Assembly: GCF_000160695.1 (NCBI RefSeq)
Contig: NZ_GG694007.1
Span: 280,911-344,910, forward strand
DNA length: 64,000 nucleotides
Source: Centipeda flueggei ATCC 43531
GTDB taxonomy: Bacteria > Bacillota > Negativicutes > Selenomonadales > Selenomonadaceae
Direction: 5' to 3'
Part shown: one piece after another, positions 324 to 53,578 of the stretch
Numbering within the stretch: the stretch's first letter is position 1
How the letters are laid out: every line of letters begins with the position of its first letter
Made by a program: the position numbers and the translations under genes
Notes under the pieces: model-generated
What the model was told of the DNA's origin: nothing
The model's database searches: none
The model's input: the letters and a program-made list of their open reading frames with translations, nothing else

Positions 324-352
324 TTGCATCGGAGCAGGCGGGCTGTTATAGT
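324..352 (+). promoter_or_regulatory. promoter of antisense RNA A1
   Basis: TTGCAT at 324-329 and TATAGT at 347-352 are separated by exactly 17 bp. The promoter faces the 3' end of the small toxin gene at 420-512. The related module near 53.4 kb has the same arrangement. Confidence 0.6.
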
Positions 353-358
353 AAGCAT

Positions 359-454
359 AGAAAGAACCGTCCTTGACGGCATCTTTCCAAGGTTGCTTAA
401 TATTCTTTCGAATAACCGCTCACTCGGTCAAAAGCTGGGCGGTTACTTTTTTTA
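359..454 (+). ncRNA. antisense RNA of small-toxin module A1
   Basis: The predicted transcript runs from about 359 to a rho-independent terminator: stem AACCGCTCA / TGGGCGGTT at about 414-444, followed by ACTTTTTTT. A small 5' hairpin (CCGTC-CTT-GACGG) and the following ATCTTTCCA are shared with the RNA of the second copy near 53.5 kb. It overlaps the 3' third of the toxin frame on the other strand, the geometry of type I antitoxin RNAs whose target overlap is at the 3' end. The RNA is predicted from sequence only. Confidence 0.6.
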
Positions 455-512
455 TCGCTAAAATATAGCCTGTGGCAGCGACCAACAAGAGAATCGCACC
501 GATTTCAGACAT
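420..512 (-). CDS. small hydrophobic peptide, type I toxin-like, family A copy 1
   Basis: A 30-residue peptide beginning MSEIGAILLLVAATGYILAI, which is one short hydrophobic helix, then a basic/polar tail (KKVTAQLLTE). The Shine-Dalgarno stretch is inside a hairpin (CCCCC-GAAA-GGGGG), so translation should be restrained. The copy at 53388 is almost identical over 20 residues but stops after ITQKK. Here an indel lets the frame run through the terminator stem of the antisense RNA. A MITE lies immediately upstream and seems to have taken the -35 site of the toxin promoter. A membrane-acting toxin is inferred from architecture. I do not recognise a named family. Confidence 0.6.
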   Translation of the reverse strand: MSEIGAILLLVAATGYILAIKKVTAQLLTE

Positions 513-600
513 ATCCGCTCACCCCCTTTCGGGGGAAAGACACCGCCGCGGGATTGCTCCCGCCCAGGACGTTTCAATGATATGACAGCACAGTCGAATC

Positions 601-769
601 TAAGGGAACACTGATAAATTCAGCACCGCCATCTTAGCACATCTTTTTTGTCCGCTTTTCGTTAGCAAATCCTCCACATAGCTTTGGCTATGCGTCCGGT
701 TTGCTGCCTCAATCGGACGAAAAAATCTGCGCCAATCTGACGGACTTCATTTTATCAGTGTTTCCCTAA
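601..769 (+). mobile_element. MITE-like element, copy 1 (subtype 1)
   Basis: A 169-bp non-coding element bounded by imperfect terminal inverted repeats (TAAGGGAACACTGATAAA left; complement of TTTATCAGTGTTTCCCTAA right). The interior folds as a long hairpin (AGCAAATCC...CATAGC...GCTATG...GGTTTGCT). Near-identical elements occur at 53602 and, as a second subtype, at 44226 and 61356. There is no coding capacity, so it must be mobilised in trans if it is mobile at all. Confidence 0.7.
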
Positions 770-816
770 AGCACAAACATATTTTCGCCCTTGGATCCAT
801 CGCGTCCAAGGGCGTT

Positions 817-1923
817 TTATATGACCGACCGCTTGAATTTCCGCACGGCGGTGCCGAAGAAGACGAGGATAAAGAGGGCGAGAAAGGCGGTCTGCTGATA
901 GAGCGCCGTGAGGCCGCCGCCCTTGAGGAAGATCATGCGCAGGATCTCGATGTAGTGCGTCATGGGGATGGCAAGGCTGAGGTATTGAAAGAATGTGGGC
1001 ATCGCCTCGCGCGGGAACATGAAGCCCGAGAGGAGGATGCCCGGCAGGAGGGTCGCAATGCTCATGAGGCCTGCCTGCAGCTGGTTCTGCGCGAGCGATG
1101 CGATCATGAGCCCCATCGTGAGCGAGGCGAGCAGGAAGAGGGTCGTGAGCGCATAGAGGAGCAGGATGCTCCCGCGCAGGGGCACGCCGAAGACCGCAAG
1201 GGCGATGAGGACGCAGATCGTCGTCTGAATGTAGCCGAGGATGATGTAGGGCAGGATCTTGCCGATGAGCAGTTCCCATATATGCAGCGGCGTTACGAGG
1301 AGCTGCTCAAGCGTGCCCGCCTCGCGTTCGCGCACGATGGACATGGAGACCATGAGCACCATGGTGATCGAGAGGATGATGCCCATGAGTGCGGGCAGCA
1401 TGTAGTAGGCGGTGACGGCATCGGGGTTGTACCATGCGCGGATGCGCACGTCGTAGGCAGGCGCAGCCACGGGCGCCCCGCGCACAGCGACGGGCTGTAC
1501 CCGCATGCCAAGCCCCGTCAGGGCGGCGATGGCAGAGGTCGAGGCGATGGAGTCCGAGGCGTCGACAATCGCCTGAATCGGCACGGTGTGCCCCGCGTTT
1601 GCCTCCCGTACAAGATCGGGCGGAAAGACAATGCCGATCTTTGCATCGCCGCGCTCGATCCGCTCGTTCAGCTCATCGTAGCTCCACGCGATATAGCGCA
1701 GGTCGAAATAGCCGCTTGCCGTCATTGCCGCGAGGAAATTGCGGCTCTCCTCGCTCCGCGACTGATCGAATACGACCGTGGACTGGTGCCGCACGTCCGT
1801 ACGGATGGCAAAGCCGAACACAACGAGGTAGATGACGGGCAGGAGGAAAGTCACGCCGATCGTGATCGGGTCGCGCCGCATCTGAATGAGCTCCTTCGCG
1901 AGCAGTGCAAGAATGCGCGTCAT
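817..1923 (-). CDS. ABC transporter permease, ABC-2 type (YbhR/YhhJ-like)
   Basis: A 368-residue membrane protein with one N-terminal membrane segment (residues about 20-42), a long extracytoplasmic domain, then a cluster of five membrane segments in the C-terminal half. That is the layout of ABC-2 permeases in HlyD-coupled exporters. The start MTRILALLAKEL was chosen because its ATG overlaps the stop of the ATPase gene (ATGA). It is the last gene of a three-gene minus-strand operon with ATPase 1920-2849 and HlyD protein 2839-3831. The substrate is unknown; relatives export drugs or other hydrophobic compounds. Only one permease is present, so it presumably homodimerises. Confidence 0.85.
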   Translation of the reverse strand: MTRILALLAKELIQMRRDPITIGVTFLLPVIYLVVFGFAIRTDVRHQSTVVFDQSRSEESRNFLAAMTASGYFDLRYIAWSYDELNERIERGDAKIGIVFPPDLVREANAGHTVPIQAIVDASDSIASTSAIAALTGLGMRVQPVAVRGAPVAAPAYDVRIRAWYNPDAVTAYYMLPALMGIILSITMVLMVSMSIVREREAGTLEQLLVTPLHIWELLIGKILPYIILGYIQTTICVLIALAVFGVPLRGSILLLYALTTLFLLASLTMGLMIASLAQNQLQAGLMSIATLLPGILLSGFMFPREAMPTFFQYLSLAIPMTHYIEILRMIFLKGGGLTALYQQTAFLALFILVFFGTAVRKFKRSVI

Positions 1924-2849
1924 CCCTGTGCCTCCCTCTGCCGCCGGTCGTAGTAGATAAAGACGTCCTCCATCGTGAGCTCCCACGGTGCCGCGTGCAG
2001 CTGCTCCGGCAGCACAGTCTCCCGCGGAACGAGTGCACGCACCTGCCGTCCGAATACATAGACCTCATCGCAGGGCACACCCGCCGCCCGCAGCGCCGCC
2101 GCCCCCTCCTCCGCACTGTCCTGCGGCAGGATGTAGAGCCGCGCGGGCAGCTCCTCCTTGAGCGCAGACGGGGAACCGGAGGCGATCTTCTTCCCGCGCT
2201 GCAGGAAGGCAATCTCATCGCAGTGCTCCGCCTCATCCATAAAATGCGTCGTGACAAAGATCGTCGTCCGCTCCGTGCCCGCCATCTCCGAGAGCAGGTT
2301 CCAAAAGAGCCGCCGCGAGGTCGGGTCAACGGCGGAGGTCGGCTCGTCGAGCACGAGGAGCGCGGGATGGTGGAGAATCGCGCAGCCTAGCGCGAGGCGC
2401 TGCTTCTGCCCGCCCGAGAGGCCGCCCGCGAGCACGTCGGCGCGGTCCGTGAGCTGCATCCGTGCGATCACCTCCGCGACGCGCGTGCGCCGCTCCTCCC
2501 GCGGCAGACCATAGAGCCCGCCGTAGAACATCATGTTTTCACGAACGGTCATATTCGCATAGAGGCTGAACCGCTGCGACATGTAGCCGAGCGCCTGCCG
2601 CGCGCGCTCCGGATGCACGGCGGTATTGCAGCCGAGCACGAATGCCGTGCCGCTCGTCGGCGGGAGGAGCCCGCAGATCATGCGGATGGCCGTGGACTTC
2701 CCCGATCCGTTCGAGCCGATGAAGCCGTAGATCGCCCCGCGCGGCACGGAGAGATTCAGCCGGTCCACCGCAGTGTAGCTGCCGAATACGCGCGTGAGGT
2801 CGTGCGTCTCGATCACGGGCGCATCGTCCGCGCGCGGCTCACGTTCCAT
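1920..2849 (-). CDS. ABC transporter ATP-binding protein (drug-export type)
   Basis: A single nucleotide-binding domain: Walker A GSNGSGKST (near residue 47), signature LSGGQ, Walker B LLVLDEPTS, and a switch His in VTTHF. The last roughly 80 residues form an accessory C-terminal segment as in YbhF/CcmA-type exporters. It powers the permease encoded immediately downstream, whose start overlaps this stop codon. ATG at 2849 (MEREPRADD) was chosen. It overlaps the end of the upstream HlyD gene by 11 bp, so the three genes are probably translationally coupled. Confidence 0.88.
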   Translation of the reverse strand: MEREPRADDAPVIETHDLTRVFGSYTAVDRLNLSVPRGAIYGFIGSNGSGKSTAIRMICGLLPPTSGTAFVLGCNTAVHPERARQALGYMSQRFSLYANMTVRENMMFYGGLYGLPREERRTRVAEVIARMQLTDRADVLAGGLSGGQKQRLALGCAILHHPALLVLDEPTSAVDPTSRRLFWNLLSEMAGTERTTIFVTTHFMDEAEHCDEIAFLQRGKKIASGSPSALKEELPARLYILPQDSAEEGAAALRAAGVPCDEVYVFGRQVRALVPRETVLPEQLHAAPWELTMEDVFIYYDRRQREAQG

Positions 2850-3831
2850 TCCGGGGCTCCAAGTCCACATCCGCGGGCATGCCGGGCTTTAGAATGCCCG
2901 CGGCATTATTCACCGCGACCTTTACGCCAAAGACGAGGTTCGCGCGCTCGTTCTTCGTGATGCTCTGGCGCAGGGTAAACTCCGCCGCATCGCTGATCTC
3001 CTTGATCGTGCCGTCCAAAGGCTCCGTCTGTCCGTCGATGTAGACCTTCGCCGGATCCCCGATGCGCAGATCGCCGAGCACGTCGGTCGGCACATAGACC
3101 TTGACCCAAACGTCCTGCGGGTCGATGAGCGTTGCAATCGGCGTGCCCGCACGGACAAACTCGCCCCGTTCATAGTTCTTTGACAGGACGATGCCGTCCT
3201 TCGGCACGCGGACCGTGAGATCGCTGACTGCAGAGGCGTCGATTTCGAGGATTGCCTGCTGGCGCCGCACATCCTCCTCCGCCATGCGGATATCCTCGGG
3301 ACGGCTGCCGCTCTCCGTGAGCGCCTGTTCCTGCTGTGCCGCGCGCAGGTTCGCATTCGCCGCGTCGCGCGCCTCGCGCAGCCCATCAAATGCCTGTTGG
3401 GAGATTGCTCCGCCTGCAATGAGCTCCGCGCCGCGCGCATAGTCGGCATCTGCTTTCTCTGCGGCTGCGCGTGCGGCATTCGTCCGCTCCGCCGCCGCAC
3501 GAATCTCCTCCGCACGGTTGCCGCTCTGCGTCCGCTGGAGGCTCGTCTCGGCATGAGCGAGCGCCGCCTCATCGCGCAGAACTGCGGCGTCCAGATCACG
3601 CCGGCCGATGCGTGCCGCTGGATCGCCGGCACGCACCGTCATCCCCTCCTGCAGAAAGAGCTCCTCGATGCAGCCGCTCTCCTTCGTGCTGACCTCCACC
3701 CGCGTCGCCTCGACCGTCCCCGTGAGGAGCTGCGCGCGCAGCTCCTGCGCCGCGTATTCGCGATGAGCAAATACAGCGAGCAGGATAAGCGCGAGAAGGA
3801 GCAGAACGATCCGTGCCATCTTCATCTTCAT
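2839..3831 (-). CDS. HlyD/EmrA-family periplasmic adaptor (membrane fusion protein)
   Basis: The protein starts with a basic stretch and one membrane anchor (about residues 5-22). A split biotinyl-lipoyl domain follows (GTVEATRVEVSTKESGCIEE ... DLTVRVPKDGIVLSKNYERG) flanking an Ala/Glu-rich coiled-coil hairpin, then a beta-barrel domain. The ATG at 3831 follows GGAAAGGAG; the longest frame begins nine codons earlier without support. It links the ABC exporter to the cell envelope, which fits a diderm host. No TolC-like outer-membrane gene or regulator lies beside it. Confidence 0.88.
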   Translation of the reverse strand: MKMKMARIVLLLLALILLAVFAHREYAAQELRAQLLTGTVEATRVEVSTKESGCIEELFLQEGMTVRAGDPAARIGRRDLDAAVLRDEAALAHAETSLQRTQSGNRAEEIRAAAERTNAARAAAEKADADYARGAELIAGGAISQQAFDGLREARDAANANLRAAQQEQALTESGSRPEDIRMAEEDVRRQQAILEIDASAVSDLTVRVPKDGIVLSKNYERGEFVRAGTPIATLIDPQDVWVKVYVPTDVLGDLRIGDPAKVYIDGQTEPLDGTIKEISDAAEFTLRQSITKNERANLVFGVKVAVNNAAGILKPGMPADVDLEPRNGT

Positions 3832-3980
3832 GCAGCGCTCTCCTTTCCGCAAAATCATATAATCTTATACAGTATATCATTGGCGTGCGCTCAGAGGAAT
3901 TGATATGCGATTAAAATGGTCTGGTGCTCCTCAGGGTCTTCAAATTTTTCTCCTGCGATTCGAACAAACATAGTTTCACT

Positions 3981-4016
3981 CAAAAAGAGCCTATCCGCAG
4001 ACAGGCTCTTTCTTTT
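3981..4016 (-). terminator. terminator downstream of mnmG
   Basis: AAAGAGCCT / AGGCTCTTT stem with A and T tracts on both sides. It can end the mnmE-mnmG transcript on the minus strand, just after the mnmG stop. Confidence 0.8.
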
Positions 4017-4025
4017 TATCTGAAA

Positions 4026-5906
4026 TTACGATGTACGCCGCGCCCTCTCGAGGTATACGAGCAGGACGGAGATGTCGGCCGGCGAGACGCCGCTGATGCG
4101 CGACGCCTGTCCGATGCAGCGCGGGCGGACGGCGGAGAGTTTCTCTGCCGCCTCGAGGCGCAGGCTGCCGATTGCCGCGTAGTCTGTATCGGCGGGGATG
4201 CGGCGTGCCTCAAGCCGCTCCATGCGCGCGATCTGCTCCTCCTGTTTCCGTATGTAGCCGTCGTAGCGCGCCATGATCTCGACCTCCTCGCGCACGTCGT
4301 CGGCAAGCGGCGGGAGGTCAAAGACGGCGGCGAGTACACGGTAGTCGCCCTCGCGTGCAAGCAGGGCAAAGAGGGTCATGGGTGTCCGCAGCGGAGAGAT
4401 GCCCGCGCCTGCGAGCAGCGCCTCTGTCTCGGCGCTCGGGCTGAGCCGCCGCTCCCGCAGGAGACGGAGCGCCGCATCGATCGCGCCGCGCTTTGCCGTA
4501 AAACGCGCCCAGCGCGCATCCGAGACGAGTCCGATGCGGCGTCCGATGGGCGTCAGCCGCAGGTCGGCGTTGTCCTGCCGCAGGACGAGACGGTACTCGG
4601 CGCGGCTCGTCATCATGCGGTACGGCTCCTCTGTTCCCTTCGTCACGAGGTCGTCGATGAGAACGCCGATGTAGCCGTCGCTGCGCCGCAGGATGAGCGG
4701 CTCCTCTCCCATGCAGGCACGTGCGGCGTTGATGCCCGCAACGAGGCCCTGTGCCGCCGCCTCCTCGTAGCCGCTCGTCCCGTTCGCCTGTCCCGCAGAG
4801 TAAAGCCCTGCGATCTCTTTGACCGCGAGGCTCGCCTCCAGCTGCAGCGGGTCGAGGCAGTCGTACTCGATGGCATAGCCGGGGCGCATCATGCGTGCAT
4901 GGTGCATTCCCGGAATGGTGCGGAGAAACTCCTCCTGCACATCTGTCGGCAGACTGGTAGACATACCCTGTACATATATTTCATTGGTATGCAGTCCCTC
5001 CGGCTCAAGAAAGAGCTGATGCCGCTCCTTGTCGGGGAAACGCGCGATCTTCGTCTCGATCGAGGGGCAGTAGCGCGGACCGATGCCCTCGATCACCCCG
5101 TTTGCCATCGGCGCACGGTGCAGATTTGCACGGATGACGGCATGGGTCGCCTCGTTCGTGTAGGTAAGGTAGCAGGGGGTCTGCGCGTCGGGCATCGCAT
5201 CCGTCAGGAAGGAGAAGGCAGGTGCATCAGGGTCGCCCGCCTGCAGTGCCGTTTCCGCGAGGTCGAGTGTGCGGCGGTCAACGCGCGCGGGCGTGCCTGT
5301 CTTGAACCGCATGAGGCGAAGCCCTGCCGCGCGAAGGGACTCCGAGAATGCCATGGCAGGACGCTGGCCGTTCGGCCCGCCGTCATAGATCGTCTCGCCG
5401 AGGATGATGCGCCCGCGCAGATAGGTCCCCGTCGCGAGGATGACGGCGTGTGCCGTCAGGCGTTCCCCCGTCTCGCAGACAACGCCGGTCACACGCTTTT
5501 CTCCCGTGCGCTCCTCCGTGATGAGCTCCGTTACGAGCAGCTGGCGCACGTCGAGGTTTTCCGTGTTCTCGAGCGTCTCCTTCATGATGCGCTGATAGAG
5601 GAACTTGTCTGCCTGCATGCGCAGGGCATGGACGGCAGGTCCCTTGCCCGTGTTCAGCAGGCGCCGCTGGATGCTCGCCCGATCTGCCGCGATGCCCATC
5701 TCACCGCCGAGCGCGTCGATCTCGCGGACGAGGTGGCTCTTGCCGGGGCCGCCGACGGATGGATTGCACGGCATCATGGCGATGTTGTCCAGCGACAGTG
5801 TTACAATGAGTGTACGCTGTCCCATGCGTGCCGCGGCAAGTGCCGCCTCGACGCCCGCATGGCCTGCGCCAATGACGATGATGTCGTAGTTTGTACTGCT
5901 GTTCAC
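4026..5906 (-). CDS. mnmG: tRNA uridine-5-carboxymethylaminomethyl synthesis enzyme MnmG (GidA)
   Basis: 626 residues, full length for the family. An N-terminal FAD-binding Rossmann motif (VIGAGHAGVEAA) is followed by the conserved NPSVGGPGKSH segment. Later come a second dinucleotide-binding region, the GQANGTSGYEEAAAQGL region and a helical C-terminal domain that binds MnmE. With MnmE, encoded 54 bp upstream, it installs the cmnm5 group on wobble U34 of several tRNAs using FAD and methylene-tetrahydrofolate. It is the last gene of the rpmH-side operon and ends at a strong hairpin. Confidence 0.97.
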   Translation of the reverse strand: MNSSTNYDIIVIGAGHAGVEAALAAARMGQRTLIVTLSLDNIAMMPCNPSVGGPGKSHLVREIDALGGEMGIAADRASIQRRLLNTGKGPAVHALRMQADKFLYQRIMKETLENTENLDVRQLLVTELITEERTGEKRVTGVVCETGERLTAHAVILATGTYLRGRIILGETIYDGGPNGQRPAMAFSESLRAAGLRLMRFKTGTPARVDRRTLDLAETALQAGDPDAPAFSFLTDAMPDAQTPCYLTYTNEATHAVIRANLHRAPMANGVIEGIGPRYCPSIETKIARFPDKERHQLFLEPEGLHTNEIYVQGMSTSLPTDVQEEFLRTIPGMHHARMMRPGYAIEYDCLDPLQLEASLAVKEIAGLYSAGQANGTSGYEEAAAQGLVAGINAARACMGEEPLILRRSDGYIGVLIDDLVTKGTEEPYRMMTSRAEYRLVLRQDNADLRLTPIGRRIGLVSDARWARFTAKRGAIDAALRLLRERRLSPSAETEALLAGAGISPLRTPMTLFALLAREGDYRVLAAVFDLPPLADDVREEVEIMARYDGYIRKQEEQIARMERLEARRIPADTDYAAIGSLRLEAAEKLSAVRPRCIGQASRISGVSPADISVLLVYLERARRTS

Positions 5907-5960
5907 GTATATATTTTCCCCTATTTTTATAACATAAATCTGATTTTATTTGTGTTATGT

Positions 5961-7340
5961 TTACTTCCCAATGCAGAACTCGCTGAAGATGCGGTCGATC
6001 AGGTCGGTATCGACGGTCTCGCCGAGGATCTCGCCGAGCGCGTCGTAGGCGGCGCGCAGGTCGATGGAGACGAAGTCCGTCCCAAGGTCTGCGGCGAGGG
6101 TCTCTGCCGCCGCCGCGAGATGCGCCTCTGCGCGGCGCAGTGCCTCGATTTCGCGCTCCTTGTTTGGGAGCGCCCCATCGCTGAGGTCGCCCTCCCGCTG
6201 AACGATGTGCGCGGCGATCTCCTCCCGCAGGGCATCAAGCCCCGTGCCCTCCTGCGCCGAGATGCGGAGGACGGGCGCAGCGACGGCGGCAAAGTCCTCC
6301 GCACTCAGTACGGAGGGGCGATCCTCCTTGCTGCAGAGGATGATAATGTCTGCCGCTGCCGCCGAAAGGCGCGCAAGGAGCGCGTGATCCTCCGCGGTCA
6401 GCGGCTCTGACGCGTCAAAGACGGCAAGGATCAGCTCTGCATCCGTGAGATGCTGCTCGGTGCGTGCGACGCCGATCTGCTCGACGGCGTCCTCTGCCGC
6501 GCGCAGTCCTGCCGTATCGAGAAGCCGCAGGGGGATACCCGCCACGCTGATCTCCTCCTCGATGATGTCGCGCGTCGTGCCCGGCACGTCGGTGACAATG
6601 GCGCGTTCCATGCCGAGGAGGGCGTTGAGGAGGCTCGATTTGCCGACGTTCGGGCGGCCGACGATGACGGTCTTGACCCCGTCGCGCAGGATGCGCCCCG
6701 TATCCGCACCCGCGAGCAGGCGGCGGACGGCGGCAGAGGCGGCGTCGATCTCCGCCGCAAGGTGTTCGGCGGAGGCCGCGGGAATGTCGTCCTCAGGGAA
6801 GTCGATCCCTGCCTCGATGTGCGCGACGGCACCGAGGATCTGCGTGCGGATGTCCGTCACTGCATGGGAGAATGCACCTGCGAGCCGCTCCCGTGCGGCA
6901 TGCGCGGCGCGTGTGCTCTTTGCCGCGATCAGCTCCATGACGCTCTCGGCGCGCGCGAGGTCAAGCCGCCCATGGAGAAAGGCGCGCTTCGTGAACTCTC
7001 CCGCCTCTGCGGGACGCGCGCCCGCCTCCCATGTCCTGAGGAGCACCTCGCGCAGGACGACCGCGCCGCCGTGACACTGCAGCTCTGCCGTATCCTCGCC
7101 CGTATAGGAGTGCGGCGCACGCATATAGAGGAGGATGCACTCGTCGATCACCGTGCCGTCCGCCGCGACGATGTGTCCATAGCGCGCCGTATAGGGTGCC
7201 ATGTCACCGAGCGTGCCGCCCGCCGCAGGCCGAAAGACGCGGCGCGCAACGCCGAGCGCATCCTCTCCGCTCACGCGGATGATGCCGATGCCGCCCGCGC
7301 CGTGCGGGGTCGCGATCTGGCTGATGGTGTCCTCGGTCAT
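5961..7340 (-). CDS. mnmE: tRNA modification GTPase MnmE (TrmE)
   Basis: 459 residues from the ATG at 7340, which follows AAAGGG. The N-terminal tetrahydrofolate-binding domain is followed by a helical domain and an inserted G domain with P-loop GRPNVGKS at about 228-235 and switch region DVPGTTRD. The protein ends CIGK, the catalytic C-terminal Cys motif. It is the GTP-driven partner of MnmG in U34 tRNA modification. A spacer of 222 bp separates it from jag, the widest gap in this otherwise tight gene string. Confidence 0.97.
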   Translation of the reverse strand: MTEDTISQIATPHGAGGIGIIRVSGEDALGVARRVFRPAAGGTLGDMAPYTARYGHIVAADGTVIDECILLYMRAPHSYTGEDTAELQCHGGAVVLREVLLRTWEAGARPAEAGEFTKRAFLHGRLDLARAESVMELIAAKSTRAAHAARERLAGAFSHAVTDIRTQILGAVAHIEAGIDFPEDDIPAASAEHLAAEIDAASAAVRRLLAGADTGRILRDGVKTVIVGRPNVGKSSLLNALLGMERAIVTDVPGTTRDIIEEEISVAGIPLRLLDTAGLRAAEDAVEQIGVARTEQHLTDAELILAVFDASEPLTAEDHALLARLSAAAADIIILCSKEDRPSVLSAEDFAAVAAPVLRISAQEGTGLDALREEIAAHIVQREGDLSDGALPNKEREIEALRRAEAHLAAAAETLAADLGTDFVSIDLRAAYDALGEILGETVDTDLIDRIFSEFCIGK

Positions 7341-18592: not shown

Positions 18593-18661
18593 ATGGGAAC
18601 CTACGAATTCTTGACGTTTCTCGTTGTGTTTGCCATATTGATCATATCGGTGAAACGATAA
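18593..18661 (+). CDS. small hydrophobic peptide, type I toxin-like (holin-like), family B copy 1
   Basis: A 22-residue peptide starting MGTYEFLTFLVVFAILIISV and ending KR: a single hydrophobic helix with a basic end. The (M)xTYExL start followed by a hydrophobic run resembles the Firmicute 'putative holin-like toxin' peptides (Hol_Tox). Its Shine-Dalgarno is buried in the hairpin GCCCCC-GGAAA-GGGGGC. A terminator hairpin follows within 10 bp and a convergent promoter faces it. The copy on the other strand at 48999-49067 differs at five of 22 residues, all conservative or at position 2, which indicates purifying selection. Confidence 0.72.
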   Translation: MGTYEFLTFLVVFAILIISVKR

Positions 18662-21399: not shown

Positions 21400-21400
21400 A

Positions 21401-44228: not shown

Positions 44229-44392
44229 AGGAATCGCTGATAAAATGAAGTCCCTTGGATTGGTGCAGATTTTTTGTCCTGTCAAGGAGACAAACCGGAC
44301 GCATAGCAGAGGCTATGTGGAGGATTTGTCGACACAGACAGGGCGGAAAAGATGTGCCAAGATGATGGGCTGAATTTATCAGTGTTTCCTAA
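44226..44392 (-). mobile_element. MITE-like element, copy 2 (subtype 2, inverted)
   Basis: A 167-bp element beginning TAAAGGAATCGCTGATAAAA and ending TTTATCAGTGTTTCCTAAA. The central hairpin is of the second subtype (CCTGTC...GACAAACCGGACGCATAGC...GCTATGTGGAGGATTTGTC...), matching the copy at 61356 in opposite orientation. Confidence 0.72.
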
Positions 44393-44447: not shown

Positions 44448-44455
44448 TATATTAC

Positions 44456-47116: not shown

Positions 47117-47199
47117 TGCAGAATCGGTCCTTTCCTCCCCTGTTTCATGGTGCGGCGCATGTATTCCGCGCCGTACGGTTGCGCTTCGCGTGCGTGTAG

Positions 47200-47229: not shown

Positions 47230-47424
47230 ACCAACTCAGTATTCCATAATATATAGCAAACGCGTCGAATATGCAAGGGATACTTCATGAGAGGGCATGG
47301 AAATTATTTGCTGTGTGCCGCTGACGTATCGTTCGGAACAGGCAGATGGGAGCGCATCCGATGAGGCTGCGCGGCATGTTCTGCTGCGGGAGAAAGAAGC
47401 CTGTCGTCGGATTGGAGGGAAAAT

Positions 47425-47928: not shown

Positions 47929-47985
47929 CTCCGTATAGGCTACAAAATATAGAAAATCACACAAAATATATTCCTATATATGGGG

Positions 47986-48129
47986 TTATCCACTAATTTA
48001 TCCACATTATCAACAGAAATCGGAGGGTCGTTCGGAAAAATTATGCACATTGTTGAAAGATGTGTGGATAAAGGAAGTTTCGGGGTTTTGAACAATTTTA
48101 TCCACAGAGTTTTGCACAGCTGGGGATAA
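47986..48129 (+). promoter_or_regulatory. DnaA-box cluster distant from dnaA
   Basis: Within 144 bp: TTATCCACT (47986-47994), TTATCCACA (47998-48006), TTATCAACA (48007-48015), TGTGGATAA (48063-48071), TTATCCACA (48098-48106) and TGGGGATAA (48121-48129). Three are perfect and three have one mismatch. AT-rich blocks flank both sides (47941-47982, 48133-48168). No DnaA-trio repeats follow the boxes. It could titrate or reactivate DnaA (datA/DARS-like) or regulate mgtC. It fills most of the 250-bp gap between the CYTH and mgtC genes. Confidence 0.8.
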
Positions 48130-48180
48130 CTTATGAAAAGATATATATAGAATATATATTATTTATAGGAGGAAGCTTTG

Positions 48181-48864
48181 ATGGCGGAGTGGGAAGTCTG
48201 TCTGCGACTTGTGCTCTCCTGTGTGATGGGAGGCATTATCGGTTATGAACGGCAGATGCGGAACAAGTCGGCAGGGCTGCGGACCAATATGCTCGTTGCG
48301 CTCGGCTCATGCCTCATCATGATTATGTCGCAGGCGATCTATGACAATGTGGAGGGAAAGACGAATGCCGATCCCGCGCGCCTTGCGGCGCAGGTGGTCT
48401 CGGGCATCGGCTTTCTCGGTGCGGGCGCGATCATGAAGGAGGGGCTGACGGTCACGGGCCTGACGACAGCGGCGACGCTCTGGGTGGTTGCGGGCGTCGG
48501 GCTTGCGGTCGGCGCGGGCTTCTACCTTGGGGCAAGTGTGACGACGGCGATTGTGTTTCTCATCCTCGGGAATCTCTCGCGGCTCGATGCATGGGTCGAT
48601 CATGAGCGCCTGCTCTCGCTCTCCATCCACACGATTGACCGCCCCGGTCAGATCATGCGCGTGAGTGCCTGCATTGAGGATCTGCACCTGCGCTCACGCG
48701 GGATGAAGGTGCGGACGGACGAGGACGAGGCGGAGACAGAGACGGGCGGTGAGCGGCGCATCTACCTGACGTTTGAGGTCTACAACCGCGAGAACATCAA
48801 GCCGTCCTTCATCGCCGATGCCCTGCGGCAGGTGGACGGCGTGCTGCGCGTCGATGTGGTGTGA
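48181..48864 (+). CDS. MgtC/SapB-family membrane protein
   Basis: 227 residues from ATG 48181, after AGGAGGAAGC. Four to five membrane segments carry the family signature (GGIIGYERQMRNKSAGLRTN, LAAQVVSGIGFLGAGAIMKE). A cytoplasmic C-terminal domain of about 80 residues with an ACT-like pattern follows. Homologues affect Mg2+ homeostasis or membrane ATP synthase. The DnaA boxes directly upstream could influence its expression. Confidence 0.9.
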   Translation: MAEWEVCLRLVLSCVMGGIIGYERQMRNKSAGLRTNMLVALGSCLIMIMSQAIYDNVEGKTNADPARLAAQVVSGIGFLGAGAIMKEGLTVTGLTTAATLWVVAGVGLAVGAGFYLGASVTTAIVFLILGNLSRLDAWVDHERLLSLSIHTIDRPGQIMRVSACIEDLHLRSRGMKVRTDEDEAETETGGERRIYLTFEVYNRENIKPSFIADALRQVDGVLRVDVV

Positions 48865-48873
48865 GCTTCGTGC

Positions 48874-48902
48874 TTGACGAAATCTGCGGATTGAAGTAAA
48901 AT
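48874..48902 (+). promoter_or_regulatory. promoter of antisense RNA B2
   Basis: TTGACG (48874-48879), 17 bp, TAAAAT (48897-48902), starting 9 bp after the mgtC stop and facing the toxin gene at 48999-49067. Confidence 0.68.
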
Positions 48903-48908
48903 AGACAT

Positions 48909-48996
48909 AGAAAAGGGCACTGCCGCTCAGCGGTTGCCCCCTTATACATGCGAGATACCCCGCCTGTTGTTTGGAGACGCAAGGCGGGGCTTTCTC
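48909..48996 (+). ncRNA. antisense RNA of small-toxin module B2
   Basis: Predicted RNA of about 88 bases ending at CCCCGCC / GGCGGGG (48958-48989), then CTTTCTC. The 5' stem GGGC-ACTGC...GCGGT-GCCC and a following C run match antisense RNA B1, while the loop differs. That suggests the fold and not just the sequence is maintained. It overlaps the toxin 3' untranslated region. Confidence 0.62.
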
Positions 48997-48998
48997 AT

Positions 48999-49067
48999 TT
49001 ATCGTTTAACGGATAAAACTAATACGGTGAACACAACGAGAAACGTTAAGAACTCGTAGGTCTCCAT
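48999..49067 (-). CDS. small hydrophobic peptide, type I toxin-like (holin-like), family B copy 2
   Basis: 22 residues starting METYEFLTFLVVFTVLVLSV and ending KR. It is the counterpart of the peptide at 18593, with Gly-Glu, Ala-Thr, Ile-Val, Ile-Val and Ile-Leu replacements. Its Shine-Dalgarno GGGGGG is paired with CCCCC in a hairpin (CCCCC-GAAA-GGGGG). Low-level translation and membrane activity are inferred from the type I architecture. Confidence 0.72.
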   Translation of the reverse strand: METYEFLTFLVVFTVLVLSVKR

Positions 49068-49123
49068 ATCAATCCCCCCTTTCGGGGGCTGAGTTACCAC
49101 TGCGCCTATCAGTGCCTGCTATG

Positions 49124-49152
49124 ATTATAGCAAACAAATGTATGCCATGTAA
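49124..49152 (-). promoter_or_regulatory. promoter of small-toxin gene B2
   Basis: Minus strand TTACAT (49152-49147), 17 bp, TATAAT (49129-49124). It lies back to back with the dCMP deaminase gene starting at 49170. Confidence 0.62.
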
Positions 49153-49169
49153 TACAGGGAGGAATCGTC

Positions 49170-49646
49170 ATGATCATCTCGTGGGATGAGTATTTTATGG
49201 GCGTGGCGCTCTTTTCCGCCTACCGCAGCAAGGATCCGCATACGCAGGTCGGCGCCTGCATCGTCAACGAGGACAAGCATATCGTCGGCGTCGGCTACAA
49301 CGGGATGCCGAACGGCTGCGATGACCATGAGTATCCATGGGGGCGGACGGGGGAGTTCGCCGAGCAAAAATACCCCTATGTCGTGCACGCAGAGCTGAAT
49401 GCCATCCTCAATGCGAGCACGTCATTGAAAGGCTGCCGTATCTACACATCACTGTTCCCGTGCAACGAATGCTGCAAGGCAATCATTCAGAGCGGCATTC
49501 GTGAGGTCATCTATCTCTCGGACAAGTACGCCACTGCCGACAGTACGAAGGCATCGAAGCGGATGCTCGCCTCGGCGAATGTCACCTGCCGCCGCATGGA
49601 GACGGAGCTGACGGAGGTGCCGGTTCGCTTTACGCCGGAGGAGTAA
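49170..49646 (+). CDS. deoxycytidylate (dCMP) deaminase, ComEB-like
   Basis: 158 residues. The zinc deaminase site is visible: HAELNAILNA (His and the proton-shuttling Glu) and LFPCNECCKAIIQSGI (two Cys ligands), plus the dCMP-specific start SWDEYFMGVALFSAYRSKDP. It deaminates dCMP to dUMP for thymidylate synthesis. ATG follows GGGAGGAATCG. A clear terminator follows. Confidence 0.94.
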   Translation: MIISWDEYFMGVALFSAYRSKDPHTQVGACIVNEDKHIVGVGYNGMPNGCDDHEYPWGRTGEFAEQKYPYVVHAELNAILNASTSLKGCRIYTSLFPCNECCKAIIQSGIREVIYLSDKYATADSTKASKRMLASANVTCRRMETELTEVPVRFTPEE

Positions 49647-49659
49647 GTCGTTCCATTGT

Positions 49660-49690
49660 ATAAAAAGAGCCGCATGGCGGCTCTTTTTGT
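49660..49690. terminator. terminator after dCMP deaminase
   Basis: AAAAAGAGCCGC-ATG-GCGGCTCTTTTT, a 12-bp perfect stem usable from both strands. Confidence 0.9.
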
Positions 49691-49707
49691 ATGCGGCGCT
49701 GCGGCGG

Positions 49708-50217
49708 TCATTCTCTCGGGAGAAGCAGCTCAAAATATTCCTCCGTATGACAGCAGATGTCCTCTTCGGCAGGGAGCTCTTCATGTGTGAGTTCTCCTCT
49801 GCGGTCAGAGACGGAGATTTTGATGCTCGCGTAGGGGATATGGAGATACATGCGGGTGATCTCTTTGCCGTCGCTTGAGAGAAAGAGGGTATAGACGCCT
49901 TCATAGGGGAGGAAGAAGGCTGATGCGAAATCATACGTCTCTCCCGCATGAAACGTCTGCCCGCCGTGGTCGACGAAGTCCCGTCGGATACGCAAACGGT
50001 CTCCTGCCTGTATGTGTCCGAAGGAAAATATCTGATTGTCGGCACTCTGCACCGTACGGTAGAACGCATAGGGGGACAGTTCTTCCTTCTTCTGCCGGAG
50101 ATATGCATCATGTGCCTCTTGTTTGTGCCGCTGTCTTACACTGTAGAGATAGGCGGCAAGAAAGAACGAGCCGAAGAGGATGGCGGCGATGATGGAAAAG
50201 AAGAGAAAGGGGGTCAT
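49708..50217 (-). CDS. single-pass membrane protein of unknown function (DUF3601-like?)
   Basis: 169 residues. One N-terminal membrane segment (about 3-25, FLFFSIIAAILFGSFFLAAY) is followed by a basic stretch and a soluble domain. The domain pattern RIRRDFVDHGGQTFHAGETY then FFLPYEGVYTLFLS recalls small DUF3601-type domains, but this is a weak visual match. The soluble part would be cytoplasmic if the basic stretch follows the positive-inside rule. Function unknown. Confidence 0.6.
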   Translation of the reverse strand: MTPFLFFSIIAAILFGSFFLAAYLYSVRQRHKQEAHDAYLRQKKEELSPYAFYRTVQSADNQIFSFGHIQAGDRLRIRRDFVDHGGQTFHAGETYDFASAFFLPYEGVYTLFLSSDGKEITRMYLHIPYASIKISVSDRRGELTHEELPAEEDICCHTEEYFELLLPRE

Positions 50218-50235
50218 GTTTCCTCACCTGCATGG

Positions 50236-50267
50236 AAAAGGAGCTGCACAGCAGCTCCTTTTTTGTT
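50236..50267. terminator. terminator between the DASS gene and the membrane protein gene
   Basis: AAAAGGAGCTGC-ACA-GCAGCTCCTTTTTT, a 12-bp perfect stem 15 bp after the transporter stop on the minus strand. Confidence 0.88.
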
Positions 50268-50281
50268 CCGTTGTATCGATG

Positions 50282-51829
50282 TTACCCGACGAGCCATACC
50301 ACGAAGTAGAGCACGAGCGGGATGGTCACGCAGAAGATGCCGATGAAGTCGATGTAGACACCGGTCTTGATCATCTTTGTGATGGGAATGTAGCCCGATG
50401 CATAGACAATTGCATTCGGAGGTGTAGACACAGGAAGCATGAAGCCAAGCGACGAAGAGAGGGCGATACCGATCGCGACGTGGATCGGGCTGAACCCTGC
50501 GGATACCGCTGCGGTAATGGCGAGCGGGCCAATCATGTTCGTCGCCGCCGTGTGACTGGTCAGCTCGGAGAGGAGCAGCGCCATCACGCAGAAGATCGCG
50601 ACGAGGGCGAACTCGGACGGCTCACCGCCGAGCATCCCGACAATGCGGTCGCCGACCCACTGCGAGAGCCCCGTCTTATACATCATGCCGCCCATCGCGA
50701 GGCCGCCGCCGAAGAGGATGAGCGTGCCCCACTCGATGCCCTGCACGGCCGATTTCCACTCGAGCGTGAACTTGCGCTCCTTGAAGTTGATCGGCAGGAG
50801 GAAGAGGAGCAGCGCGCCTGCCATTGCCGCGACCGCCTCAGGGAAGAGGTGGTTGTACATCTTGAGGAGCGGTGAGGTGCTGCCGAGCATCATCGAGAGG
50901 ATGCCCGGGAACACCCAGAGAAAGACGGCGACGAGGAAGCAGACGAGCGTGTTCTTCTGTGCGCGCGTCCAGCCGCCGAGCTCGGCGACACGCGCGCGGA
51001 TGAACTCCTCCGCGCCGTCGATGCGCTCGACATCGGGCGGGAACATACGGATGAGAACAATATAGGCGATAATAAAGTATGCCACCATTGCAATGGCGCC
51101 CCACGTCATCCATTCGAAGAAGGAGATGTGGATGTTTGCCATCTGATCGAGGAAGCCGAGCATGATGATGTTCGGCGGAGTGCCGATCGGAGTCAGAACG
51201 CCGCCGATCGAGCAGGCATACGCCGTCATGAGCATCAGCCCGGTCGCGTACTTGTAGTTGTGCAGGTCGATCTCCTTGCCGTTCGCGGCCATCATTTCCT
51301 TGACGGCAGACAGCAGGCCGAGGGCGATCGGGAACATCATCGCGGCCGTCGCCGTATTGCTCACCCAGCCGGAGCAGAGTGCTGCGGCAAGACCGATCGC
51401 GAGGAAAATGCGGCGCGGATTCGAGCCGACCCACGAGCGCGAGAGCAGCCAGTAGGCAAAACGCTTGTCGAGTCCATGATCCATCATCGCCTTGGCGAGG
51501 ATGAATCCGCCCATGAAGAGGAAGATCATCGGATTGGCGAATGCCGCATAGGCATCCTTTGCCGTGACCACGCCTGTTACGACAGCGAGCGTCGGCCCGA
51601 TGAGGGACGTGACGGGGATGGGTACGGGTTCCGTGATCCACCAGAGTGCCACCAGAACCATGATGGCGAGCAGCTTGTGTGATGCAAGCGTCAGTCCGTC
51701 AATCGGCGTCAGGAGCACCAGAATCGCAAGGATTGGCGCACCGAAAAGACCGACGAGACGACGTGTGCGATCAAACTTTTGCTCCGCCTCATGAATCTGT
51801 TGGGCTTCTTTGCTTTGATCTCCGCTCAT
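50282..51829 (-). CDS. DASS (SLC13) sodium:dicarboxylate/anion symporter
   Basis: 515 residues from ATG 51829, after GAAGGAGG. About 11-12 membrane segments. The two DASS signatures are present: SNTATAAMM with TPIGTPPNII in the first half, and LTSHTAATNMIGPLAI with LPVSTPPNA in the second. It probably imports malate, succinate, fumarate or tartrate. Together with the malic enzyme gene about 5 kb away it could serve dicarboxylate use, but that link is only inferred. Confidence 0.9.
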   Translation of the reverse strand: MSGDQSKEAQQIHEAEQKFDRTRRLVGLFGAPILAILVLLTPIDGLTLASHKLLAIMVLVALWWITEPVPIPVTSLIGPTLAVVTGVVTAKDAYAAFANPMIFLFMGGFILAKAMMDHGLDKRFAYWLLSRSWVGSNPRRIFLAIGLAAALCSGWVSNTATAAMMFPIALGLLSAVKEMMAANGKEIDLHNYKYATGLMLMTAYACSIGGVLTPIGTPPNIIMLGFLDQMANIHISFFEWMTWGAIAMVAYFIIAYIVLIRMFPPDVERIDGAEEFIRARVAELGGWTRAQKNTLVCFLVAVFLWVFPGILSMMLGSTSPLLKMYNHLFPEAVAAMAGALLLFLLPINFKERKFTLEWKSAVQGIEWGTLILFGGGLAMGGMMYKTGLSQWVGDRIVGMLGGEPSEFALVAIFCVMALLLSELTSHTAATNMIGPLAITAAVSAGFSPIHVAIGIALSSSLGFMLPVSTPPNAIVYASGYIPITKMIKTGVYIDFIGIFCVTIPLVLYFVVWLVG

Positions 51830-51879
51830 TTTCTCAGCCTCCTTCAATGGTAATCGATAATCCCATTATTTATATTGTT

Positions 51880-51909
51880 ATTATACGAAATTTTGAAGTC
51901 TTTTTGCAA
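51880..51909 (-). promoter_or_regulatory. promoter of the DASS transporter
   Basis: Minus strand TTGCAA (51909-51904), 18 bp, TATAAT (51885-51880). A TATAAT at 51954-51959 on the plus strand probably serves the divergent dehydrogenase gene. Confidence 0.65.
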
Positions 51910-51999
51910 CACTTTTCTTAACCGATGGAATGACTTTTTTTCCTCGGTTCTGTTATAATGAACACGATGAAATAAGTTTGTGAAAAGAGGAGGAGTTTC

Positions 52000-53184
52000 A
52001 TGCAGAGCTTTACCTATCATTGTCCGACGGAGATCATCTTCGGGCGGGGGGCGGAGGATAGTGTTCCCGCAAAACTGCGTGCGGCAGGGGCGCATCGCGT
52101 GCTCATCCTTCACGGCAGGGGCAGTGCGGAGCGATCGGGGCTGCTCTCGCGCATCGAGATGCAGCTGACCTCGGCGGGGCTTGCCTTCCTCGTCATCGGC
52201 GGCGTACAGCCAAACCCGCGTGTCGCGTTCGTTCGCGAGGCGATCCGTGAGGGCCTCGCGGCGGATGTGAACTTCGTCCTTGCCATCGGCGGCGGCAGTG
52301 TGATCGACTCGGCGAAGGCGGTCGCCCACGGCATCGCGAACCCTGACGTGGACATTTGGGATATCTGGACGAAGAAGGCAGTGCTGACGCGCACGCTGCC
52401 CGTTGCGTCCGTGCTCACCATTCCCGCTGCAGGCAGTGAGACGAGCGACTCCGCCGTGCTGACGAATGAGGATACGGGGCAGAAGCTTGGGCTGAACGCG
52501 CCGCTTAACCGTCCCGTCTTTGCCTTCATGAACCCGACGCTTGCCTTTACCCTGCCGCGCGAGCAGATCGCTGCGGGGGCATCGGATATCATGATGCACA
52601 CGATGGAGCGCTTCTTTACGGATGTCAAGGAGCCGAATGTCTTTACCGACCGCATTGCGATCGATCTTCTGCGCACTGTGATGGAATCCGTGCGACGCCT
52701 TCTCGTCTCGCGCAAGGACTACGATGCGATGAGCGAGCTCATGTACTGCGGCAGTATATCGCACAGCGACTTGACAGGACTTGGACGCGGTAAGGATTTC
52801 TCCGTACATAAGCTGAGCCATCCGCTCTCTGCACGCTATGATGCCACACACGGGCGTGCGCTCACCGCGCTCTGGGGATCGTGGGCGCGGTTTGCCTATC
52901 CCTACGACCCGGCACGCTTTGCCCAGTTCGCCGCCGACCTCTTCGGCATTGATGCTGGCACGGACGAGGAGCGCGCACGTGCGGGCATCCGTCACATGGA
53001 GGAGTTTTTCACCTCCATCGGAATGCCGACGAGCATCGGCGGGCTGGGAATCGGCACCCTCTCGGCGAGGACGATCGAACAGCTCGCAGACGATGCGACG
53101 CAGGAGGACCGCATCCGCATCGGCGTATTCCACCCGCTCACACGCGCCGACGCCATCGCCATCTACACGGCGGCAAATCACTAG
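52000..53184 (+). CDS. iron-containing alcohol dehydrogenase (butanol-dehydrogenase-like)
   Basis: 394 residues. The NAD(P)-binding region has FVLAIGGGSVIDSAKAVAHG. The metal ligands are in AAGASDIMMHTMERFF (Asp, His), DFSVHKLSHPLSARYDATHG (two His). Length and pattern fit the YqhD/BdhA-like branch that reduces aldehydes. ATG follows AGAGGAGG. It is a single gene ending at MITE debris. Confidence 0.9.
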   Translation: MQSFTYHCPTEIIFGRGAEDSVPAKLRAAGAHRVLILHGRGSAERSGLLSRIEMQLTSAGLAFLVIGGVQPNPRVAFVREAIREGLAADVNFVLAIGGGSVIDSAKAVAHGIANPDVDIWDIWTKKAVLTRTLPVASVLTIPAAGSETSDSAVLTNEDTGQKLGLNAPLNRPVFAFMNPTLAFTLPREQIAAGASDIMMHTMERFFTDVKEPNVFTDRIAIDLLRTVMESVRRLLVSRKDYDAMSELMYCGSISHSDLTGLGRGKDFSVHKLSHPLSARYDATHGRALTALWGSWARFAYPYDPARFAQFAADLFGIDAGTDEERARAGIRHMEEFFTSIGMPTSIGGLGIGTLSARTIEQLADDATQEDRIRIGVFHPLTRADAIAIYTAANH

Positions 53185-53222
53185 GGAAGTGCTGAATTTA
53201 TCAGTACCGCCCTCTAAGCAAT
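53184..53222 (+). mobile_element. MITE end fragment
   Basis: CTAGGGAAGTGCTGAATTTATCAGT... combines features of both MITE ends in about 38 bp and directly follows the dehydrogenase stop codon, which it overlaps (TAG). It is a decayed remnant. Confidence 0.45.
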
Positions 53223-53227
53223 CAGCA

Positions 53228-53276
53228 AAAGACCTGCCCAACGAAGTCATGCGGCTGCGCTGGACAGGTCCTCTTT
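53228..53276. terminator. hairpin after the dehydrogenase gene
   Basis: AAAGACCTGCCCAACG / GCTGGACAGGTCCTCTTT: an imperfect long stem followed by a T-poor tail. A probable terminator. Confidence 0.5.
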
Positions 53277-53289
53277 ATAGAAAATATGT

Positions 53290-53318
53290 TTGTTGTTTTT
53301 CCCTATATATGTTATATT
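53290..53318 (+). promoter_or_regulatory. promoter of small-toxin gene A2
   Basis: TTGTTG (53290-53295), 17 bp, TATATT (53313-53318). In copy A1 the equivalent -35 position is occupied by the edge of a MITE. Confidence 0.6.
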
Positions 53319-53387
53319 GAGAATGAAACGTCCTTGGGCGGGAGCAATCCCGTGGCGGTGTCTTTCCCCTGAAAGGGGGTGAGTGAG

Positions 53388-53462
53388 ATGTCTGAGATCG
53401 GTGCGATTCTTTTCTTGGTCGTTGCCACAGGCTACATACTCGCGATAACCCAAAAGAAATAA
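53388..53462 (+). CDS. small hydrophobic peptide, type I toxin-like, family A copy 2
   Basis: 24 residues starting MSEIGAILFLVVATGYILAI and ending TQKK. One hydrophobic helix with a basic tail. The ribosome-binding site lies in the hairpin CCCCT-GAA-AGGGGG. A terminator stem begins immediately at the stop codon and also serves the facing antisense RNA. Only two changes occur in the first 20 residues relative to copy A1. No annotated family was recognised. Confidence 0.7.
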   Translation: MSEIGAILFLVVATGYILAITQKK

Positions 53463-53543
53463 CCGCCCACTCTGACCAGTGAACGGTTGTTCAAAAAACA
53501 ATGCGCAAATCTGGAAAGATGCCGTCAAAGGACGTTTCTTTCT
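53452..53543 (-). ncRNA. antisense RNA of small-toxin module A2
   Basis: Predicted from about 53543 to the terminator AACCGTTCACT / AGTGGGCGGTT (53461-53488), then ATTTCTTTT. Its 5' hairpin CGTC-CTTT-GACG and following CATCTTTCCA match antisense RNA A1. It overlaps the toxin 3' end. Predicted from sequence only. Confidence 0.62.
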
Positions 53544-53549
53544 ATGATC

Positions 53550-53578
53550 ATTATAGCAAATTCATCCATTTTTTGCAA
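53550..53578 (-). promoter_or_regulatory. promoter of antisense RNA A2
   Basis: Minus strand TTGCAA (53578-53573), 17 bp, TATAAT (53555-53550), better than the facing toxin promoter, as expected for an antitoxin RNA in excess. Confidence 0.7.

Follow-up and report, generated by a model that had tools for sequence, protein, structure and literature searches.

Short peptide genes with facing antisense RNA genes in Centipeda and Selenomonas look like a family of RNA-silenced peptide toxins

A 64,000-nucleotide window of the Centipeda flueggei ATCC 43531 genome (G000, 2.16 Mb; contig C7, positions 280911-344910) holds two small cassettes, here called family A, in which a gene for a short hydrophobic peptide faces an antisense RNA gene. 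From their sequence, these cassettes and their relatives look like a new Selenomonas family of RNA-silenced peptide toxins. That they are modules of the type I kind, a toxin with its antisense RNA, is well supported by a conserved membrane peptide, a sequestered Shine-Dalgarno (SD) sequence, a strong facing promoter and a decay that mostly strikes the toxin first. We hold it likely that they form a chromosomal type I toxin-antitoxin family similar to bsrG/SR4, in which the peptide would be toxic, the antisense RNA would repress it and the duplex of both RNAs would be cleaved. The comparison of genomes supports the conservation of the peptide, the promoters, the complementarity between the 5′ and 3′ ends of the mRNA, and the mostly toxin-first decay.

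The sequence-only reading had reported two family A cassettes at these sites. Both are present, and two further copies lie on the same contig beyond the window. The two window cassettes are reverse-complement repeats of each other (repeats I5, I6, I12 and I14). Their parts are given below with the two family B genes of the window; transcript ends, of mRNA and antisense RNA, are predicted from sequence in all cassettes.

53290-53318, plus strand: cassette 2, toxin mRNA promoter, TTGTTG-17-TATATT, score 10.8 in our own position weight matrix (PWM) scan
53325-53557, plus strand: cassette 2, predicted full-length toxin mRNA, reaching 14 nt past the antisense start, its end placed by deduction
53325-53335, plus strand: cassette 2, first 5′ arm of the closing helix, partner 53528-53538; RNAalifold returned the same helix for 21 family A mRNAs
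53354-53367, plus strand: cassette 2, second 5′ arm, running into the pyrimidine tract, partner 53513-53526
53366-53378, plus strand: cassette 2, SD-sequestering hairpin of the predicted fold
53388-53462, plus strand: cassette 2, peptide open reading frame (ORF), 24 residues, MSEIGAILFLVVATGYILAITQKK, toxin-like
53513-53538, plus strand: cassette 2, predicted mRNA 3′ hairpin, inverted repeat I20, not listed in the terminator scan
53447-53543, minus strand: cassette 2, putative antitoxin, an antisense RNA of about 97 nt with its terminator stem at 53488-53461
53550-53578, minus strand: cassette 2, antisense promoter, TTGCAA-17-TATAAT, found by the PWM scan and the consensus scan
324-352, plus strand: cassette 1, antisense promoter, TTGCAT-17-TATAGT, PWM score 11.5
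359-453, plus strand: cassette 1, antisense RNA; covariance model match 360-458, 78.8 bits (the locus itself is in the model)
366-380, minus strand: cassette 1, second hairpin on the mRNA strand, terminator-like in the scan
420-512, minus strand: cassette 1, peptide ORF, 30 residues, MSEIGAILLLVAATGYILAIKKVTAQLLTE, C-terminus extended and usual stop gone
601-776, no strand: miniature inverted-repeat transposable element (MITE) at cassette 1, 176 bp, directly upstream of the toxin promoter region
18593-18661, plus strand: family B peptide ORF, MGTYEFLTFLVVFAILIISVKR, architecture as in family A
48999-49067, minus strand: family B peptide ORF, METYEFLTFLVVFTVLVLSVKR, architecture as in family A

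All four family A copies of this genome have an SD hairpin in the leader, a 24-codon ORF (lengthened to 30 codons in cassette 1) and a facing promoter of the type TTGNNN-17-TATANT; a recognisable toxin promoter was found in three of them. The SD hairpin and the facing promoters had been claimed before and are indeed there (TTGCAA-17-TATAAT at 53578-53550 on the minus strand, TTGCAT-17-TATAGT at 324-352 on the plus strand). So are the predicted antisense RNAs, whose length, put earlier at roughly 90 bases, is delimited here at about 94-101 nt. The RNA of about 97 nt ends in a hairpin starting at the toxin stop codon, which is its predicted terminator. A toxin mRNA ending at the same hairpin was considered and dropped: the U-run lies on the antisense strand, and on the mRNA strand of cassette 1 a second hairpin is listed. 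The mRNA more likely ends, in our model, at this second hairpin, which is complementary to the 5′ end of the antisense RNA; the scan lists it in cassette 1 (380-366), not in cassette 2. There the hairpin at 53513-53538 is the complement of both the antisense 5′ hairpin and the mRNA's own leader. The consensus promoter scan listed the antisense promoter of cassette 2, and neither toxin promoter nor the antisense promoter of cassette 1. In cassette 2 the antisense promoter scored higher than the mRNA promoter (PWM 14.6 versus 10.8), the mRNA folds at −83.7 kcal/mol (z −4.45; 0 of 200 shuffles equally good), and the family A covariance model, which includes this locus, matched 53447-53542.

In cassette 1 the MITE stands at the promoter region, the toxin promoter scores 6.2 (mean of family A, 12.3), and the usual stop codon is gone. 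For these reasons its toxin half is probably dead and its antisense gene live. The four type I-like modules announced for these 64 kb do sit there, one of them probably minus its toxin half, so that three of the four look complete.

The peptide is under purifying selection. The pooled ratio of nonsynonymous to synonymous substitution rates (dN/dS) was 0.11 over 21 toxin-intact family A copies, which have 21 distinct nucleotide sequences across the first 20 codons, while the other two frames gave pN/pS values (the corresponding ratio of differences) of 1.07 and 1.69. Pooled dN/dS was 0.12 in family B (22 copies), 0.20 in the intermediate family I and 0.28 in family C, both introduced below. Two marks of a type I system are found together: a small hydrophobic peptide gene under purifying selection, in A (0.11) and in B (0.12), and an antisense gene that has a predicted promoter and terminator of its own and is complementary to the toxin mRNA. 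The sequence-only reading had named, as the finding that would speak against it, an RNA that is kept while the peptide is not; among toxin-intact copies the peptide is kept (dN/dS 0.11, 21 A copies). Thirteen loci do have the RNA without a complete toxin gene. They fit an antitoxin, and are compatible as well with an independent role of the RNA.

A profile built from four family A peptides matched in 13 of the 14 genus genomes, with 0 to 4 matches per genome, and in 18 of 189 genomes of the taxonomic family, five of them outside the genus with weak matches that include some intermediates and two loci with no cassette (L049 and L050). Within the class, 19 of 300 genomes and 5 of 91 genera matched, and in a phylum-wide sample 2 of 398 genomes, in its own genus only, one being the genome studied here. 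A peptide search of named genomes placed 9 of 10 loci in Selenomonas or Centipeda. Outside the genus, a Clostridiales metagenome-assembled genome (L045, DUNN01000036.1) has a peptide ending in AVLFLVVATGYILVVRQQAKK and a similar stop-codon hairpin. The search of plasmids, phages and viral contigs gave no relative, hence no evidence of a plasmid or phage home. The earlier remark that no described toxin family is recognised in this peptide holds for Pfam, PHROGs and PADLOC, which gave no match, and for NCBIfam, where matches stayed below the cut-off; the sortase-signal and GG_III matches there (1 of 14 members each) were set aside as short hydrophobic matches. At the gathering threshold, Rfam returned one tRNA only across the window. 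In open-licence full text (T1TAdb lying outside this scope), no study of such loci came up under type I toxin-antitoxin with Selenomonas or Negativicutes; PMC10910872 has the two terms within a citation and within the legend of an unrelated figure, and PMC10880999, by its title, deals with thioredoxin systems.

Family A had been described as unrelated to family B, and this is not supported. Looser searches gave intermediate peptides (family I, for example MSYYEFILVLILVTGYIICVKKK), and the genus also holds a Hol_Tox-like group, family C (MSLYEKLSLMLAAATLAVNIIFL). Comparison of profiles joined A to I with a probability of 97.7% and I to B with 95.5%, two reversed-sequence controls giving 1.6%, so that intermediates bridge two families whose direct comparison reached 44% only. 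Since I to C reached 53%, the peptide evidence alone is chain-like, and the anatomy of the RNAs is the stronger link between A, B, I and C. The likeness of layout to family B had been seen correctly and extends to all four subfamilies. In each of them a shared motif, delimited by eye, opens both the mRNA and the antisense RNA: AACGUCC...UCUUUCC in A, GCACUG...GCCCCC in B, GAACC...CUUCUUC in I and GUGACUG...CUCCC in C. In identity-based alignments of the two RNA starts, mean scores for cognate and shuffled leaders were 35.7 and 20.6 in A, 44.4 and 23.9 in I, 30.4 and 21.6 in B, and 31.2 and 19.6 in C, the highest single shuffles reaching the cognate mean in A, B and C. In relatives, loci L052-L058, L065 and L066 belong to family C (MSLYEKLSL...) and have the facing-RNA layout of A. 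In the genome studied here the sole match to Hol_Tox (PF16935) is weak and lies inside a long frame.

For the statistics, 73 cassettes were taken together, 62 judged by eye as toxin-intact and 11 as toxin-damaged (L011, L012, L020, L028, L031, L033, L035, L054, L097, L108 and L109); the toxin-intact L052 and L066 have a weak toxin promoter (7.6). Left outside this set were 2 of 32 matches of the genus peptide search (L154, L160); from the class search, partial or further copies (one in G177, two in G255, L159 in G012) and the intermediates L156, L157, L158 and L160; 16 of the 25 rows of the PF16935 search, several of them weak and in long frames; and 3 of 28 rows of another peptide search. The promoter scan rewards a 17-bp spacer, and shuffled controls were therefore added. 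The best antisense promoter had a 17-bp spacer in all 62 toxin-intact cassettes, against 35% of 1240 shuffled regions. Its score had a median of 14.2 and was at least 9.4, the lowest value among toxin-intact cassettes, which we used as a cut; the shuffled mean was 5.9, and 5.3% of shuffled regions reached 9.4. In L077, the scan places the antisense start some 19 nt ahead of the hairpin motif. The antisense promoter was stronger than the mRNA promoter in 50 of 62 cassettes (20 of 21 in A, 9 of 11 in I, 13 of 22 in B, 8 of 8 in C).

Decay of the cassettes mostly concerns the toxin side. Damage in the 11 toxin-damaged cassettes consists of a MITE in the promoter or leader, a deletion, a frameshift, a poor promoter or an altered peptide, and the antisense promoter still reached 9.4 in nine of them (the exceptions being L020, 6.8, and L028, 8.7); none of the 62 toxin-intact cassettes fell below this cut. 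In 14 genomes, a covariance model built on the antisense RNA of A matched 49 times; 36 of these matches are known cassettes (28 A, 8 intermediate). The other 13 are the loci without a complete toxin gene, L154 and L159 retaining its 3′ part. Nine have an antisense promoter of at least 9.4, L159 scores 8.8, and three have none. One bare RNA (L155) lies in G005, the sole genus genome without a family A peptide match. Compared with the best-matching antisense RNA that the 73-cassette set contains for the same genome, ten bare RNAs show 66-88% identity. The window's own genome, which has no intermediate peptide match, carries two intermediate-type antisense genes 5 kb apart with no toxin gene (L148 and L149, G000:C8:1062450 and 1067314; model E-values 2.2e-4 and 0.00995). 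Upstream of L148, 232 of 233 bases are identical to the intact cassette L158 of G003, so that one and the same site carries a toxin gene in one species but lacks it in the other, even though the RNA sequences differ. Another bare antisense gene (L146, G002:C1:2334289-2334385) lies just upstream of the intact A cassette L016 (2334573), as if a tandem pair had lost one toxin.

Because the two genes face each other and share their 5′ motif, the 5′ end of each mRNA is complementary to its own 3′ end. When the 62 toxin-intact mRNAs were folded, the mean number of expected 5′-3′ pairs was 23.6 in A, 26.8 in I, 17.4 in B and 14.3 in C. Cognate ends formed better duplexes than non-cognate ends of the same subfamily: −38.8 versus −36.3 kcal/mol in A (permutation p 0.0002), −44.6 versus −32.0 in I (0.0002), −36.2 versus −33.9 in B (0.0008) and −35.1 versus −30.4 in C (0.0006). 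Against shuffled leaders, z was −4.6, −6.7, −3.6 and −5.2 for A, I, B and C. Unprompted, RNAalifold returned this helix for A and I; for B it drew the six outermost pairs. Among the 9 sequences of I, some of which are near-identical, none of 500 shuffles matched the covariation score or the number of two-sided changes, and 70 of 500 had as many pairs with such changes. Of 419 cells in A, 98.8% pair, compared to 47-62% when slid. In bsrG from SPBc2 a 5′-3′ helix of −33.6 kcal/mol was computed (300 shuffled leaders: −21.5 ± 3.7), together with an SD hairpin like the one here.

The cassettes' SD hairpins are of the type CCCC-GAAA-GGGG. In cassette 2, blocking or removing the 3′ end gives a hairpin of five pairs; the full-length fold has three (53368-53370 with 53374-53376). 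When the antisense region was blocked, pairs between the leader tract and the SD rose in 19 of 21 A mRNAs and 10 of 11 I mRNAs. Binding of the SD by the antisense RNA was rejected as an explanation for A, where the match, by eye, is short; one B copy and one member of I show a longer match.

Put together, these elements would work as follows. The toxin would be a peptide of about 24 residues with a single hydrophobic stretch. Once the leader of its mRNA (about 220 nt) is transcribed, a GC hairpin would cover the SD, and in the finished mRNA the 5′ end would then pair with the 3′ terminator hairpin in a helix of about 20-25 bp. The antisense RNA of about 97 nt, whose predicted promoter in A is the stronger one, is complementary to the entire 3′ part of the mRNA, and its 5′ hairpin, a copy of the leader, would compete with the leader for the mRNA 3′ end. 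Its binding would free the leader tract and allow a longer SD hairpin, and the RNA duplex would be a substrate for RNase III, as with bsrG/SR4. A further step is tentative, and we think it may well be wrong: that one sequence acts as terminator, closing-helix arm and antitoxin target, with leader and antitoxin hairpins competing in a self-mimic switch, and that bare antisense genes which keep their promoter serve as stand-alone antitoxins against the toxins of relatives. Bare antisense genes that have a preserved promoter are common, which would suggest the latter role.

Several results weigh against this picture. Expected pairs are few in some B members (0.6 in L092, 5.0 in L110). The cognate advantage is small in B and in A, where the cognate end came first for 2 of 21 mRNAs, and two of the 11 members of the I set are distant, so that its cognate test is easier to pass. 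Within-column shuffles reached the pairing of A in 61 of 500 cases, as nearly all changes there are one-sided wobbles, and the best of 300 shuffled bsrG leaders (−34.5) beats the real one. The SD hairpin lengthened in no more than 10 of 22 B mRNAs, and C was mixed (3 up, 3 down of 8). The SD of A is unpaired at 0.11 in the full mRNA, 0.15 when bound and 0.13 when truncated, meaning that it is predicted closed in all three states and that the models show no switch. As for decay, the toxin side is a larger target for damage than the antisense side, the damaged set was judged by eye, and a search with an RNA model finds RNA-bearing loci only.

Among known systems the closest is bsrG/SR4 of the B. 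subtilis prophage SPbeta, of the TxpA/BsrG family. There too the transcripts converge and overlap at their 3′ ends, the SD lies in a CCCC..GAAAGGGG hairpin, and the mRNA 5′ end pairs, by computation, with its own 3′ part. Section 2.4 of PMC6562991 gives an SD sequestered in 4-5 GC pairs as a trait of the TxpA/BsrG family; computed folds of our cassettes agree (in cassette 2, five pairs when blocked, three at full length), as does the 3′-end overlap of toxin mRNA and antitoxin in the predicted promoter and terminator geometry. According to the consulted passages of PMC6562991 and PMC7430163, SR4 binding lengthens the bsrG SD hairpin from 4 to 8 bp and RNase III cuts the duplex; a similar lengthening is modelled here in A and I. 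The systems differ in size (a peptide of 38 residues versus about 22-27 here, an antisense RNA of 180 nt versus about 97) and in that bsrG has a separate terminator hairpin after the helix, whereas here the predicted terminator hairpin is itself the 3′ arm and the counterpart of the antisense 5′ hairpin. On the peptide side, A was not directly compared with BsrG or TxpA: A, I and B have no Pfam match, I reaches C at 53%, and C, which has the RNA layout, matches Hol_Tox weakly (5 of 5 members, best E 2.2e-4) and below the Pfam cut-off, a gathering cut-off exceeded in none of the 14 genus genomes.

In the parts of PMC6733600 consulted, the full-length aapA mRNA is shut by a 5′-3′ interaction, and transient SD hairpins form first. 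Closure of the full-length mRNA by such a long-distance interaction, as in aapA/IsoA of Helicobacter and hok/Sok, is found here in computed structures, weakly in some B members. However, the 3′ end of aapA carries the anti-SD, and 3′ truncation activates it, while here the anti-SD lies in the leader, the antisense RNA covers the mRNA 3′ end, and removal of that end leaves the SD closed in the models (0.11 full, 0.13 truncated), so that this part of the aapA scheme does not apply. The cassettes also resemble fst/RNAII in being convergent with a 3′ overlap. In fst/RNAII of pAD1 (par), convergent genes overlap at their 3′ ends and the shared repeats are direct repeats in DNA; here the repeat is inverted, and no Fst-type Pfam peptide match was found. 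In the passages on other type I systems that the literature search returned, a self-mimic switch was not met.

Could the peptide be something else than a toxin? Many short membrane peptides are regulators, and this one, conserved and very short, could modulate a membrane complex while the antisense RNA sets its level; in a variant, an RNA with a role of its own outlives the gene, which would suit the persistence of bare RNA genes even in G005. We find this unlikely given the profile matches varying from 0 to 4 across 14 genomes, the recurrent loss or damage of toxin halves next to a preserved RNA promoter, and the bsrG-like architecture. It is about as improbable, in our opinion, that the mRNA ends are complementary only as a by-product of a 5′ hairpin that both RNAs share for stability, for a common binding factor or through concerted evolution of an inverted duplication, with no long helix formed. 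The motif does lead both RNAs in each subfamily, and the covariation control and the cognate advantage of A, as said, are weak. Yet the cognate advantage appears in all four subfamilies, I shows two-sided changes, and bsrG has a comparable helix. Transitions between the two motifs also favour those keeping a G-U pair in the mRNA (115 versus 41), with the reserve that they are non-independent, that some alignments are loose, and that a U/G-rich leader may have other causes.

Finally, we give hardly any credit to the idea of a short mobile element, moved by MITE-like transposition with peptide and RNA as passengers. MITEs adjoin both window cassettes; the element, roughly 170 bp long and with termini resembling AGGGAA.CACTGATAAA, has copies at the following places.

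601-776, 53603-53778 and 61357-61532 of the window: MITE copies
44230-44364 of the window: MITE copy, inverted

A lone MITE-like end (AGGGAAGTGCTGAATTTATCAG, window 53183-53208) also lies, by eye, to the left of cassette 2, the full MITE being on its right. The element is abundant genome-wide, with at least 40 matches in 10 of 14 genus genomes (1-2 in G001 and G009), but it lies within 260 nt upstream of just 6 of the 73 cassettes, five of them toxin-damaged, and downstream of one. The MITE as carrier of the cassette was accordingly dropped. Family A occupies eight sites defined by their flanks, with 8, 8, 5, 3, 1, 1, 1 and 1 copies, so 21 of 28 copies are at three shared sites; this rests on a stricter clustering used for A, since single-link clustering of flanks had merged several sites.

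The putative toxin-antitoxin cassettes of families A and B tend to lie near the origin. For family A, 22 of 28 copies are on a dnaA-bearing contig, all 22 within 238 kb of dnaA, a figure biased by contig extent. In five genomes one main contig carries the chromosome (G002, G009, G011, G012 and G013), and there all 9 A copies, at four sites, are within 238 kb. Family B lies within 155 kb (21 of 25 measurable), and C at 65-232 kb (7 of 9 measurable); I, with 4 of 11 copies measurable, is spread from 165 to 641 kb without clustering. Rounded lengths were used for two genomes, and the pattern was noticed after the fact; it is partly vertical inheritance. Tandem cassettes occur in A (L019 and L029, G001:C11:182 and 470, 288 bp apart) and in B (L102, L093 and L111, G002:C1:27304, 27587 and 27880, 283 and 293 bp apart). 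The window also contains a 300-nt repeat of 69% identity (D2) at 59334-59633 and 61536-61835.

If true, these findings would bring a compact type I toxin family into the Negativicutes. Within the genus, decay can be followed as a natural series, from intact pairs through MITE-interrupted toxin promoters and a frameshifted toxin to bare antitoxin genes, and the two-copy hairpin is a simple, mutable system in which to study how a toxin mRNA may be shut before its antitoxin arrives. The bare antisense genes bear on whether RNA antitoxins may be kept as immunity to foreign copies.

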